The notes under the pieces were generated by a model. It was given only the letters and a program-made list of their open reading frames with translations, did no database searches and was not told the origin of the DNA. From positions 2,098,501 through 2,162,500 of the forward strand of contig NC_135365.1 of NCBI RefSeq assembly GCF_051622035.1: DNA of 64,000 nt, written 5' to 3'. Positions 52,998 through 60,548 of the stretch are shown here, piece by piece (within the stretch, counting starts at the first letter, position 1; the number at the start of each line of letters is the position of its first letter). The position numbers were made by a program, and so were the translations under genes. This DNA is from Arctopsyche grandis. Lineage: Eukaryota > Arthropoda > Insecta > Trichoptera > Hydropsychidae.

Positions 52998-53086
52998 ATA
53001 TAGTAACTGGTTAAAACCCTCGGTTATTCCACTTTTAGGTAACCCAAAAGGTTATCCTACACAAACATTTTCGTATATAAAGAAAT
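52998..53086 (+). pseudogene. orphan A-type peptide gene promoter (gene lost)
   Basis: Matches the promoters of genes A and A-prime (ATATAGTAACTGGTTAAAAC, CCACTTTTAG, GTAACCCAAAAGGTTATC, CGTATATAAAG with TATA at 53074). After the TATA box it jumps into sequence that elsewhere lies downstream of gene B (AAATGATTATTACGAATTTA, compare 57328). So a third A-type copy was probably removed by a deletion or unequal exchange, leaving only its promoter. Confidence 0.65.
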
Positions 53087-53430
53087 GATTATTACGAATT
53101 TATACTTTAATGCATTTAAATGACACTATTCATTTGAGATTTATATTTAATTATTAACGATTCAATCTATGTTGGTTAACGTTTTTGGTAAAAGTACACA
53201 AATACCGTTATCTAATTGGCAAAAAAACAAACTTTTTTCAATTACCGGTATATACTGGTATACCGGTAGTGGGAAAAGTCATTTATCAAATACTAGTTTG
53301 TGAAATATGACGGTAAATTGCAATCTCTTATCATATTATATGATTCATTTTATTGCAATTGCATTTTAAGTATTTTTGTTAGAAAGTGTAAGAATGTCTA
53401 TATTCCTAAAATTTGTGCATACTTTATACA

Positions 53431-53757
53431 CATATATATATATATATATATATATATATATATATATATATATATATATATATATATATATATATATATA
53501 TATATATATATACATATATACATATATATATATATATATATATATATATATATATATATATATATATATATATATATATATGTATACATATACATATATA
53601 TATATATATATATATATATATATATATATATATATATATATATATATATATATATATATATATATATATATATATATATATATATATATATATATATATA
53701 TATATATATATATATATATATATATATATATATATATATATATATATATATATATTA
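53431..53757. repeat. (TA)n microsatellite, ~325 bp
   Basis: TA repeats with a few TACATA/TGTATACATA interruptions near 53510-53595. The duplicated flank at 57665-57690 has only a ~20-bp TATACATATATAAATA seed at the same place. All Ile/Tyr frames here are repeat artefacts. Confidence 0.95.
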
Positions 53758-54043
53758 GTATAAATATTATGAAATATTGACAAGAATGTGGATATAATTT
53801 AAAAACGCAGCACGGTTTTTTGGTTAGAATTTGATTTAAAACTAGGGATCTGTGCCACTTTGTAACGTGCCAGTTTCCCAACCATTAGCACGGATAATCG
53901 GGAGCGTATTTTAAACTCAATTGATCAACCGTAGCCTAAACGAAGATATTGAATTGAAATTTTCCAAATCGTTGATTAAAGCATCCTTGAAATCAATATA
54001 GTAACTGGTTAAAACCGCCCAATCTATGTAAAATGGGTGCCAT

Positions 54044-54105
54044 AGGTTTTTCCATTTTTAGATAACCCAAAAGGTTATCCCAGAAAAATCATTTTCGTAT
54101 ATAAA
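54044..54105 (+). promoter_or_regulatory. core promoter of peptide gene A
   Basis: In order: a kB-like (A)GGTTTTTCC at 54044-54053, an inverted repeat GATAACC (54061) - CAAAA - GGTTATC (54073) whose left arm reads AGATAACC (GATA-type), and TATATAAA at 54098. The ATG is 69 bases after the TATA box. Close kB-like and GATA-type sites are known from insect antimicrobial peptide promoters; binding here is inferred. Confidence 0.45.
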
Positions 54106-54166
54106 GACGTTTGTGTGTAAATACTTGCAGTATAAAAATTGGACTGAAAGCTTTGCCAACTCAAAA

Positions 54167-54444
54167 ATGAAATTCATATACTTTTTGCTGATTTTCTTGA
54201 TCGCCCTGTTTGGAGTCGACGCTTATAGAACAAATACGAATACTGGTATAATTTTTGTATATGTCATTTGTTATTAAATACTTATTAATAATGATTCTAT
54301 ATTGGTTTAAAAACACTTTTCATTACAGTCGTAGCGAAGAAAAAGTGTCCATCGGACTGCAACCCATACTGCAAGGCAACATGGGGACGTGAAGCACAGT
54401 CTCTAGGCTGTGACAATGATAAATGTGTATGTGCAATGCCATAA
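54167..54444 (+). CDS. secreted CS-alpha-beta defensin-like peptide, gene A
   Basis: Two exons, 54167-54245 and 54329-54444, joined with an 83-bp GT-AG intron (phase 1) into 64 residues. Exon 1 encodes a signal peptide (starts MKFIYFLLIFLIALFGVDA) and a short linker ending TNTNT. Exon 2 carries six cysteines: 33, 37, 41, 54, 59 and 61, i.e. C-x3-C-x3-C-x12-C-x4-C-x-C. The CxxxC plus CxC pattern is the CS-alpha-beta signature of defensins and related peptides, with an unusually short first loop. The Gly-x-Cys of the gamma-core is not kept (Leu-Gly-Cys). AATAAA signals lie at 54443 and 54473. Likely role: secreted immune peptide; a venom- or signalling-type function is possible. Family known, exact function not. 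Confidence 0.85.
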
Positions 54445-54710
54445 TAAATATAATCGTATTTGTTTCCTTAAAAATAAATTCACATACAAATACTCACGGG
54501 TTTTATTCAGTGATACTAATTGTATACATAATATAATACATACCTATAAATGTGTACATATGTACCTAAGTAGAATTTAGAGTGGTAGATCTTAAGCAAA
54601 TCTTAAAGGAAAATTATAGAAAATAGTTTCACTTTTAAATGATTTTTATATATGTAATATAATTAAAAAATCCTATATTTCAAATTGCTAAAATTATTCC
54701 TCGCCCTTAA

Positions 54711-58026: not shown

Positions 58027-58087
58027 GACGTACGCGTGCAAATATTTGCAGTGTAAACATTGGACTGTAAGTTTTGCCATCGCAAAA

Positions 58088-58363
58088 ATGAAATTCATAT
58101 ACTTTTTCCTGATTTTCTTGATCGCCCTGTTTGGAGTCGACGCTTACAGAACGAATACTAATACCGGTATGATTTTTTATACGTCTACGTTATTAAATAT
58201 TCATTAACAATGATTCAATACAGGTTTAAAATAACTTTTCTTTACAGTTGTAGCCAAGGAAAAGTGTCCATCGGACTGCCAGGCATATTGTGTCAAAAGA
58301 TGGGGACGTGAAGCACGATCTGGAGGCTGTGCCAATGGTGAATGTTTATGTGGAATGCCATAA
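58088..58363 (+). CDS. secreted CS-alpha-beta defensin-like peptide, gene A-prime
   Basis: Exons 58088-58166 and 58248-58363 (81-bp intron, phase 1) encode 64 residues, a paralogue of gene A. The signal exon differs from A at one residue (Phe7 for Leu). The cysteine exon keeps all six cysteines (33, 37, 41, 54, 59, 61) and the WGREA segment but differs at 13 of 38 residues. It has Gly-Gly-Cys, so the gamma-core Gly-x-Cys is present here. AATAAA lies at 58391. The gene and about 1.5 kb of flank are a duplicate of the gene A region (53088-55498). Function as for A: secreted, probably immune; not proven. Confidence 0.86.
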
Positions 58364-58989
58364 TTAATATATTCGTACTTGTTTCATTAAAATAAATTGA
58401 CATACAAAAAACTCATGGGTTTTATTCAATGATGCTAATTATATACATACATACCTATAAATGTGTAAATATGTGCCTAAGTAGAATGATAGTTCTTAAG
58501 CAAATCTTAAAGGAAAAAAATAGGTTCACTTCTAAATGATTTTTATATAATATAATTAAAAAATCCTATATTCCAAATTTATAAAATTAATCCTCGCCCT
58601 TAATAATACGTAAATAAACTTAGCTTTGATTTCAAATCACACCAAAGAAAAAAATAGGACAGATAATGCCAATTATGCATTTACGGTAAAATTCCACGTG
58701 ATAACCATTGATGACGATTGATGCAGTTGTAATTTAAAATATAAACATAAAAAAATACATAAAAATGTATCTGCCACCCTTGCAGATTCCATTGGATCCT
58801 TTGCTAGTACAAAGTATACAAAATAGACTTTGATACACTTCAATACTTCAATTTTAGTTGTTAACAATAATACAAAAAAATAAAAAATAATCTTATCATC
58901 TATGGCCTAGATTCTACGCAAATGCAAACATTTTCGACATTTCTTTACAATTGATTTTTTTAATTAATGAAAACTACATTCAAAATCCA

Positions 58990-59640
58990 AATATGTATAC
59001 CATACAAAATATTATGTCAAAGTGTATTGTAATCATTCATATATTGCGCTACAGTGCTCAATTTATTTAGCAGATTGAATGTTGACAAACTGCAGAAAGT
59101 GCAGAATAGAGCAATGCGTGCAATTTTAAATGTGAGGAAACGTAAGAATGTTAGAAGTATGTTAGATGAATTGAAATGATTGGATATTAGAAATATTCTT
59201 AAATTAAGCACTTTAAAATTGGTATATAAGCTAGATAATAATCTATTACCCAAGTATTTTAATAATTACATAGTCAGGAATAGAGATTTGCATAATTTTA
59301 AAACTAGAATAAATTAACTATAGGAAAAGTTAAGAAAGCAAAAACTGCAGGAGGTGTTTTCCACAGAGGTGTTCAAATATACAATGCCCTTTCTGAGAGC
59401 ATTAGAGGTGCTTTCTTGAAGGGTGTTAATGCATACCTCTGTGGAAGATGACGTAATTAAATATGTAAGTTTGATAAAATGCTATGTTGAATAGTATTAT
59501 ATTATTTTAGATTTACTAATTATAGTTTTGTTAATTTTGTCAAGTCTATTAGAGTATAGTTGTTAGTGGTGAAATTGTGAAATAATCCATTAGCAATTTG
59601 CTATTTAATTAATTAATTAATAAATAAATAAAGTGTGGGA
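58990..59640 (+). mobile_element. non-LTR retrotransposon 3' end
   Basis: One frame reads KLQKVQNRAMRAILNVRKRK, then LDIRNILKLSTLKLVYKLDN, NLLPKYFNNYIVRNRDLHNF with stops, a typical LINE RT C-terminus. It ends in a (TTAA)n/(TAAA)n tail at 59605-59633. It separates gene A-prime from the B relic. Confidence 0.78.
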
Positions 59641-59735
59641 ATTTAATAAAAACAAATTTTGGAATACCAGTAGTATATGTTGTGCCTAGAAATATTTATT
59701 AAAATAAATACACGCGAACAAGGCGCACAGCCAAT

Positions 59736-59790
59736 CAGCCAAACAGCTTATGGAAAATGCTACCGTGGAAGCTGTGGATGTGTTGTGTAA
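59736..59790 (+). pseudogene. 5'-truncated B-type peptide gene relic
   Basis: The last codons of a B-type second exon remain (AYGKC, then a shortened Cys-rich end with the CxC and a TAA stop), and the following ~290 bp match the 3' flank of gene B (57003-57290). The signal exon, intron and first three cysteine codons are missing, with unrelated sequence upstream. It is a remnant of the second half of a duplicated A-B pair. Confidence 0.75.
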
Positions 59791-60097
59791 ATTTAATTTT
59801 TAAATATTTCGATACAATAACACACGTGTGCACTATTTAAATACATACGACAATTTTCATTAAATAAAAATGCACAAATTTGATACAAAACAAAATTACG
59901 CGTTTTATTAACTCCCGATTACAATGCCGGTATAGAGGCTTACTATTATTCGATCAATGCAAATTAGGTTGTCTGGAATTTGTTTATTTTCAGTATTAAA
60001 TGTGGAAATTTCAAATTGATAAACCCACTGGCAACACAAACGTAATAAATGCGATCAGACGGTTGTTTCAATTATTATCGAAACACTATAAAGTGGT

Positions 60098-60548
60098 CCA
60101 AACATAATCAAATATTTAGGAGTAACTTTCGATAAAATAATGAGATGGGCACCACACATTGAGGGAGCGAAATGCAAGGCGATGCGGGGTATATCCTCAA
60201 TATATCCAATATTTAATCGCCATAGTTCTTTATCAAATCAAAATAAAATAAAATTATATCGCGCGCTCATATTACCATTATTAACCTATGCTTCACCTGT
60301 ATGGAATAACGCCTCGAATACTAACCTTTCCAAGCTCCAAGTAATACAAAATAAATCCCTAAATATAATTTATAATACACCCATATATACTAACTTGAAA
60401 AAACTGCATGCCATATATAATATTCCGTTTGTTACAGACATTACTAACAAACTAACCAGTAGATTCTATGACAGAATCACTAATAACCATACTAACACAC
60501 TTGTGAAGAGTCTCGGTGATTACAAAAAATTGTCTATACCCTTTAGGT
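60098..60548 (+). mobile_element. Jockey-like LINE RT fragment
   Basis: Open frame IIKYLGVTFDKIMRWAPHIE, KLYRALILPLLTYASPVWNN, SRFYDRITNNHTNTLVKSLG, SIPFR. Nearly the same protein as 36643-37140 (minus). The frame is cut at 60548 by the hAT element, so its last ~12 residues and 3'UTR are absent. Confidence 0.85.

Follow-up and report, generated by a model that had tools for sequence, protein, structure and literature searches.

Short-loop relatives of the insect defensins have been described before. The nasonins of Nasonia vitripennis, as characterized in PMC2853521, are defensin-like peptides with a short loop between cysteines 1 and 2 (loop 1) and no propeptide, they are tandemly duplicated, and nasonin-1 and -2 have an intron in phase 1 that follows the signal peptide. 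The loop of insect defensins is given in PMC5116183 as 4-16 residues, the classical type lying towards the upper limit; the same source proposes loop shortening as a step from defensin to toxin, using the navidefensin2-2 conversion, and ties a gamma-core motif to channel block. In Hermetia illucens, defensin-like clusters encode small secreted paralogous peptides that appear in the haemolymph after infection (PMC11097590).

The locus considered here lies in a 64,000-nucleotide stretch of the caddisfly Arctopsyche grandis (the window), where three six-cysteine genes, A1 (54167-54444), B1 (56717-57002) and A2 (58088-58363), sit at exactly the coordinates that had been predicted (Table 1). All three consist of two in-frame exons, the first encoding a signal peptide and the second the six-cysteine domain, as expected for secreted peptides, and in all three the GT..AG intron falls at the same place in phase 1 (83, 76 and 81 bases in A1, B1 and A2, respectively). 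Cysteine spacing is 3-3-12-4-1 in A1 and A2 and 4-3-10-5-1 in B1, in agreement with the very short first loops originally reported, and the A loop is thus below the 4-16 range given for insect defensins in PMC5116183. B1 is a prepropeptide with RQRR ahead of its first cysteine, a detail overlooked in the original prediction, whereas the A genes have no such site.

Table 1. Features of the A/B region, in window coordinates
Feature	Position	Strand	Basis
Promoter remnant from a lost A copy, marking the array's left edge in the sequence read	53022..53083	+	94% to 57967-58028, 89% to 54045-54107
Unit 1 A-side (upstream, A1, downstream)	53079..54710	+	Matches to unit 2 A-side
A1 TATATAAA box	54098..54105	+	-69 from ATG; consensus match only
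A1 exon 1, signal peptide	54167..54245	+	In frame, GT..AG intron
A1 exon 2, mature six-cysteine domain to stop; loop 1 of 3 residues	54329..54444	+	
B1 exon 1, signal peptide and first part of propeptide	56717..56795	+	
B1 exon 2, RQRR then six-cysteine domain; loop 1 of 4 residues	56872..57002	+	
Unit 1 B-side (B1 exon 2 end plus 3' flanking sequence)	56954..57292	+	89% to 59745-60083
Unit 2 A-side (upstream, A2, downstream)	57325..58603	+	Match to unit 1
A2 TATATAAA box	58019..58026	+	-69 from ATG; consensus match only
A2 exon 1, signal peptide	58088..58166	+	
A2 exon 2, mature six-cysteine domain; loop 1 of 3 residues	58248..58363	+	
B2 relic, terminal portion of a B-type exon 2, final three cysteines kept	59736..59790	+	59745-60083 89% to 56954-57292

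The proposed duplication of an A-B pair is borne out by repeated blocks of 87-89% identity: 53079-53478 matches 57325-57723 at 89% and 53745-54710 matches 57671-58603 at 87%, the first unit holding a 336 bp (AT)n run at 53432-53767 inside its A-side. The truncated relic is indeed a remnant from the end of a B copy otherwise lost, its end and flank matching those of B1, and it gives a weak profile match at 59743-59784 (E 0.13). The A-type promoter relic likewise confirms the left end of the cluster, placed originally at 52998. The A-B-A-B order stands as a two-unit event at the edge but is not a principle of the locus, since further right more A genes and other subfamilies follow on both strands in no alternating order.

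The A and B genes in fact lie at the margin of a far more extensive tandem array. In the 321.5 kb of sequence read, where coordinates right of the window continue the window count, 18 intact-looking models of the same type, 3 inside the window and 15 beyond its right end, span 86 kb of the contig, together with relics and solo exons, instead of the small locus first envisaged. The models outside the window were searched for with phase 1 as a requirement, so a shared phase carries independent weight in A1, B1 and A2 alone, and D2, F1 and A5 have uncertain splice sites. The cysteine pattern, in a form loosened after the first scan, had 20 matches in the 321.5 kb, of which 19 fall within 54.3-140.2 kb, whereas 20 simulations matched for length and dinucleotide composition yielded a single match between them; the pattern is not due to chance. 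The match at 249724 was rejected as an array-type gene for want of a signal exon, and C3 (exon 2 at 77110 with exon 1 at 79606) was rejected as a gene because that exon 1 pairs with another exon 2 only 76 bases away (C5), leaving C3 as an orphan exon.

Loop 1 varies considerably across the array. It is shortest in the five A genes, at 3 residues each, reaches 4 in the B, D and E genes and the remaining C genes, and is 6 residues long in C1, C2 and F1; a copy on another contig has a loop of 10, and D3 carries a seventh cysteine. A propeptide site RSKR is found in C1, C2 and C4, with C1 made up of signal, propeptide, RSKR and mature domain, while a dibasic site is absent from B3, B4 and B5 and from each of the five A genes.

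The spacing C..Cx3C..C..CxC is present in A1, A2, B1 and the other models. The CS-alpha-beta fold that had been put forward, to be checked by structure prediction, is recovered in the predicted model of B1 (helix 14-24, strands 29-33 and 37-41, pLDDT 78), for which 48 of 49 neighbour rows are CS-alpha-beta as judged by title; the A1 model (helix 10-18, strands 23-28 and 31-35, pLDDT 79) is consistent with this fold and has weak matches only. In Pfam, C1 and C2 are above the cut-off of the arthropod defensins (Defensin_2, PF01097; 25.4 versus 20.4 for C1), whereas A1, A2 and B1 differ from this family, with no row up to E 10 and a loop of 3-4. The dibasic propeptide end typical of classical insect-type defensins is present in B1, C1, C2 and C4, and the long first loop is not found in A or B. 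In a family profile search whose list was headed by scorpion toxins, nasonin-1 came up at E 0.0013, and among NCBIfam families only actinodefensin was hit (best E 0.0017), by 4 of 17 models. The 17 models used for motif, propeptide, charge and upstream-site counts (the 17-model set) include the orphan exon C3 and leave out C5 and D3; the first three counts take A4 with a donor other than that of its final model. Rfam gave nothing at the gathering score and a tRNA search gave none.

Most likely, A and B are relatives of the insect defensins that resemble the nasonins in their short loop. Like the nasonins as described in PMC2853521, the array combines a short loop 1, a six-cysteine CS-alpha-beta fold and tandem paralogues; nasonins lack a propeptide, as the A genes do, and they coexist with defensins that carry a propeptide and with navidefensin3 as a linking form. 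A1 and A2 share this whole nasonin-like feature set, and B1 agrees with it in loop and intron and departs from it in carrying a propeptide site. The array shows no clear orthology to the nasonins, and differs from them in that B1 retains RQRR and the host belongs to a different insect order. The Hermetia illucens clusters of PMC11097590 are also similar by description, as paralogous small secreted insect peptides; they differ in that the paper relates them to Kunitz-type sequences. Because nasonins are in print and an array member passes Defensin_2, the suggestion of an undescribed system was too strong: this is a series within a known peptide family and no new system. Queries with A2 and B1 against 5.8 billion proteins gave no match, in a search that needs exact shared words and for short peptides that are often unannotated; as an NTAN1 control in the same database returned 227 proteins, with many insect proteins among the 120 listed, insects are represented, and the empty result may be a weak sign of lineage restriction. 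The NTAN1 sequence of the window, roughly assembled from six-frame pieces, groups with five Lepidoptera in a tree (97/96) and, in a wider tree, falls outside every lepidopteran sampled (0.96); on this one gene the host stands next to the Lepidoptera, as a basal moth or caddisfly would, and a fly host, suggested by simple repeats and short introns, was set aside. By path length, however, the nearest rows are a termite, a louse and Corethrella; the set had no named caddisfly or moth outside the Ditrysia, and three long rows (Caerostris, Ischnura, Frankliniella) were removed ahead of the wider tree.

Protein identity between A1 and A2 is 96% in exon 1 and 65% in exon 2, and exon 2 is the more diverged in most of the A and B pairs compared; exceptions are A2/A5 (48% versus 51%), D1/D2 (45% versus 45%) and C1/C2 (95% versus 98%). 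A1, A2 and A3 form a mosaic in which the mature exon has a history different from that of the signal exon plus intron. Non-synonymous divergence of exon 2 in A1/A2 exceeds noncoding divergence (about 18/88 versus 55/556, Fisher p 0.006, in tests picked after seeing the data and treating sites as independent). Positive selection in this exon was considered and set aside as unproved because synonymous sites are also raised, dN/dS being about 1.1 (0.235/0.213), and the other pairs are below 1 (A1/A3 0.95, A2/A3 0.47).

In the flanks, A3 has the TATATAAA box at the same place as A1 and A2, at -69, and C1, C2 and C4 have a TATA box at -100, although across the 17 upstream regions TATA is no more frequent than in random sets (120 of 300 reach the observed counts). 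Two kB forms, Dorsal-type sites and GATA sites are likewise not clearly enriched upstream of the 17 models, their counts being reached by 28, 45, 89 and 35 of 300 random sets; the sole Dorsal-type site (A2, -122) was rejected as an immune element, as it is altered in A1. A polyadenylation signal lies within 150 bases in 14 of the 18 models, versus 41% expected at random.

We consider the best explanation, at a probability of roughly 0.6, to be a secreted CS-alpha-beta defensin-like array derived from a C1-like defensin by loop shortening, encoding putative microbe-directed host-defence effectors and growing by duplication and exon exchange. The ancestor would have been a C1-type insect defensin, whose loop between cysteines 1 and 2 probably shortened from 6 to 4 to 3, with the propeptide presumably lost in the A genes. 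The signal peptide would be taken off in the secretory path, after which a furin-type protease would cut B1, C1, C2 and C4 at RQRR or RSKR; for the A peptides signal peptidase alone should be enough. The folded peptides would then act as extracellular effectors against microbes, each copy with its own target range, as nasonin-1 reportedly does in Nasonia. Duplication would have expanded the array, and exchange near the intron, as the A1/A2/A3 mosaic suggests, would pair different mature exons with promoters and signal exons that are alike, such that expression and secretion might stay common while the active part diversifies.

Host defence is also the best functional reading of the peptides; activity on ion channels had been offered beside it. 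That the A genes, and maybe other short-loop copies, are secreted against other animals and act on channels through their short loop 1, independently of scorpions, seems unlikely. The cysteine spacing of A1 and A2 is similar to that of the scorpion short-chain potassium channel toxins (PF00451), which is also their best sub-threshold profile match, but both fall below its cut-off (10.6 and 14.3 bits versus 25.1), and the channel option is weakened because the gamma-core KCXN with short loop, a motif criterion taken from PMC5116183, is absent from all 17 of the 17-model set. We regard it as quite unlikely that part of the array encodes signalling or reproductive ligands, evolving fast after duplication in the manner of the plant CS-alpha-beta attractants. 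The exon-2 divergence described above would fit such ligands, as would the neutral or acidic cores of 6 of the 17 models in that set and the presence of AtLURE plant attractant structures among the weak neighbours of A1; the dN/dS values leave selection unproved, and defence peptides can give the same divergence pattern.

An improbable alternative is that the majority of copies are unexpressed leftovers of duplication in a decaying array. Decay is visible in the B2 relic, solo signal exons at 106049, 112497 and 161230, a pseudogene with an in-frame stop (99374-99291) and the orphan exon 2 at 77110-76989, and the uncertain splice sites of D2, F1 and A5 point the same way. Against this, 18 models retain frame, six cysteines and an available GT..AG intron, and both the boxes at -69 (A1-A3) and -100 (C1, C2, C4) and the excess of polyadenylation signals also count against decay.

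A bolder and rather doubtful proposition is that this one locus is a natural first-loop deletion series, running from a defensin with a loop of 6 and a furin-type propeptide to a propeptide-less form with a loop of 3 that is closer in appearance to scorpion short toxins than to defensins, with exchange near the intron bringing new mature exons to a shared promoter and signal exon, and the A branch having given up its antimicrobial role and turned to a new target. The navidefensin2-2 conversion has reportedly been used as a model for scorpion toxin origin; if true, the series would be an insect counterpart of the proposed defensin-to-toxin route with its intermediates side by side, addressing how defence peptides acquire new targets. 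In literature naming Trichoptera, defensin and caddisfly, titles and abstract openings mention no such array. A defensin-like array of this size is now seen on the lepidopteran/caddisfly side of the insects, and one array with loops of 6, 4 and 3, with and without propeptide, provides matched natural peptides for testing the loop-shortening step.

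When the A2 gene was used to search the genome, eight matches were returned, every one on the window's contig (C11, NC_135365.1); four lie beyond the window's right edge, none to its left and none on other contigs. The sequence read extends from the window start rightward to C11:2420000 (321.5 kb), and array coordinates are in window count, obtained by subtracting 2098500 from the contig position. Within these 321.5 kb there are 20 instances of the cysteine pattern with a stop after it, 19 of them between 54.3 and 140.2 kb, against one match in total across 20 simulated sequences of equal length; no signal exon was found for the twentieth, at 249724. 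The array holds 18 intact-looking models in subfamilies A to F. The original prediction of a small, alternating A-B-A-B cluster was therefore wrong as to size, and gene order across the whole array does not alternate; its positions for A1, B1 and A2 match the exon coordinates exactly. Models beyond the window were built on the condition of a phase-1 intron, and for D2, F1 and A5 it is uncertain where the splice sites lie. D3 has its extra cysteine after the fifth of the normal set and before the sixth (CCC). In C5 just three residues separate cysteines 3 and 4, seemingly too few for the typical helix.

Genes, relics and solitary exons of the array, in window count
Feature	Position	Strand	Contig position	Remarks
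A promoter relic	53022-53083			without gene
A1	54167-54245, 54329-54444			intron 83 bases, GT..AG, phase 1; 64 residues
B1	56717-56795, 56872-57002			intron 76 bases, GT..AG, phase 1; 69 residues
A2	58088-58166, 58248-58363			intron 81 bases, GT..AG, phase 1; 64 residues
B2 relic	59736-59790			end of B-type exon 2 plus 3' flank; 89% over 342 columns
A3	65336-65609			intact-looking
A4	73177-75007			intact-looking; intron 1642
Orphan exon 2	77110-76989
C5	79606-79297	minus	C11:2178106-2177797	intact-looking
C4	82464-82782			intact-looking
C1	85086-85417			intact-looking
A5	89183-88893	minus		intact-looking
C2	93894-94225			intact-looking
D1	95526-95254	minus		intact-looking
D2	97470-97750			intact-looking
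Pseudogene	99374-99291			stop between its apparent first two cysteines
B3	101654-101938			intact-looking
D3	103971-103705	minus	C11:2202471-2202205	intact-looking; seven cysteines
Partnerless signal exons	106049, 112497, 161230
B4	122761-122351	minus		intact-looking
B5	124882-125299			intact-looking
E1	132083-131766	minus		intact-looking
F1	139935-140216			intact-looking

A1 and A2 share 96% of residues in the first exon and 65% in the second, with inter-cysteine gaps of 3-3-12-4-1 (4-3-10-5-1 in B1). In B1 the motif RQRR lies directly N-terminal to the first cysteine, making it a prepropeptide; A has no counterpart. Three blocks (53079-53478, 53745-54710 and 56954-57292) each have a second copy with 87-89% identity, at 57325-57723, 57671-58603 and 59745-60083 respectively, which bears out the proposed duplication of an A-B unit. 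The copy-to-copy distances are unequal (about 3.92 kb for A, 2.79 kb for B), most of the gene is gone from the second B copy, and a 336-base AT run upstream of A1 is absent upstream of A2. The 98% identity of C1 and C2 across 1.6 kb indicates that duplication is ongoing. About 116-289 bases upstream of B1, the 174 bases at 56428-56601 are self-complementary at 74%, perhaps a small inverted-repeat element beside the B1 promoter.

The mature exon seems to have a history of its own. In exon 1 plus intron, informative sites join A1 to A3 (16, versus 1 for A1-A2 and 2 for A2-A3), while exon 2 leans to A1-A2 (18 versus 12 and 7), the 3' flank likewise favours A1-A2 (15 versus 2 and 4) and the upstream region is mixed (22, 17, 11); the exon contrast gives a Fisher p of 0.0004 in a test picked after the data were seen. 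A1 and A3 differ by 1.3% in exon 1, 2.4% in the intron and 26% in exon 2, beyond which they are not alignable (41-46%). The same holds for B4 and B5, which agree at 96% over exon 1 and the intron, 82% over exon 2 and 37-52% further on, and the solo exon at 112497 has the promoter, exon 1 and ~110 bases of intron in common with B5, after which likeness ends. Judging from these patterns, the promoter-signal-intron block apparently either moves or is homogenised independently of the mature exon. Selection is possible behind the faster change of exon 2 relative to noncoding sequence (p 0.006), but synonymous sites are likewise raised and dN/dS does not exceed about 1.1.

Elsewhere in the window, which is 35% GC apart from a GC-rich minisatellite, that minisatellite block, whose units measure roughly 72-90 bases, stands at 10000-10845 and, inverted and 52 kb away, at 62211-63076, with flanks at 9490-10012 and 63064-63586. 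A 387-base tandem repeat occupies 20068-22381 (six copies, 98% matches), and an interspersed repeat (533 columns, 90% alike) lies at 54710-55239, between A1 and B1, and at 35017-35545, near NTAN1. Two related open frames, 60092-60619 (adjoining the B2 relic on its right) and 36643-37128, presumably resemble the RNase H end of a jockey-type retroelement; Pfam returned no credible match for the former. NTAN1 pieces lie at about 34.7-44.7 kb. In a 55-row tree the window's NTAN1 falls beside five Lepidoptera (support 97/96), and a broader FastTree run places it outside every lepidopteran sampled, a tineoid among them (0.96); by path length its nearest rows are other insects, since the moth branch is long. 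The host that best suits this placement is a caddisfly or a basal moth, though the evidence is thin, coming from one gene roughly joined from pieces.

C1 scores 25.4 bits against Pfam Defensin_2 (cut-off 20.4) and comprises signal, propeptide, RSKR and mature part. Its best solved relative is the arthropod defensin 2ru0 (E 0.0005), and its 36 solved relatives mix venom peptides, fungal, insect and plant defensins, nasonin-1, navitoxin and scorpion toxins, along with a handful of unrelated chains whose E is no better than 0.3. A whole-genome Defensin_2 search found five places above cut-off: C1, C2 and three dispersed exons outside the array, at contig positions C6:28405365 (close to C1, first loop 6), C5:5061318 (first loop 10) and C9:27572782 (first loop 4); a further such exon, C3:16545501 (first loop 4), fell slightly below, the last three loops being read by eye. 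On re-scoring of cut pieces, those from contigs C6, C5 and C3 were above cut-off and that from C9 narrowly below. Within the array the first loop, between cysteines 1 and 2, measures 6 in C1, C2 and F1, 4 in B, D, E, C4 and C5, and 3 in all five A genes, slightly under the 4-16 given for typical insect defensins in PMC5116183. A1, A2 and B1 reach no Pfam cut-off; their nearest families, all below it, are scorpion short toxins for A1 and A2 (E 0.73 and 0.054) and a plant pollen-coat family for B1 (E 0.0038). Among ten other models, including C3, an exon join since withdrawn as a gene, C1 alone passed.

With E<=0.01, a profile built from 17 mature domains matched 36 solved sequences, which by their names all appear to be CS-alpha-beta. 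The fold had been interpreted correctly; the claim of an undescribed system was too strong for what is a large defensin-like set. Scorpion channel toxins are first and most frequent among the matches, which also include plant defensins, nasonin-1 and two insect defensins, a result that speaks to fold rather than function.

That these are defensin-like host-defence peptides we put at a probability of roughly 0.6, on the precedents of nasonins and the black soldier fly. According to PMC2853521, nasonins have a short loop, lack a propeptide and occur in tandem copies, the signal peptide of nasonin-1 and -2 is followed by a phase-1 intron, and nasonin-1, active on Gram-negative bacteria, rises in transcript upon bacterial challenge; nasonin-3 and -4 show no induction. 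PMC11097590 describes small defensin-like peptides from paralogous clusters in black soldier fly haemolymph after infection, one of three tested being active. Counting against host defence, kB sites are not enriched upstream of array models, and 6 of 17 cores are neutral or acidic. Ion-channel activity of the A genes, perhaps with other short-loop copies, is ranked below it and appears unlikely, since the gamma-core motif named in PMC5116183 is missing from all 17 models tested, although channel toxins come first in both profile and structure comparisons and the profile ranking slightly raises this alternative at the expense of host defence. Overall, the locus forms a large array of defensin-like genes whose loop lengths make up a natural series, and host defence would most likely be the function of its peptides.
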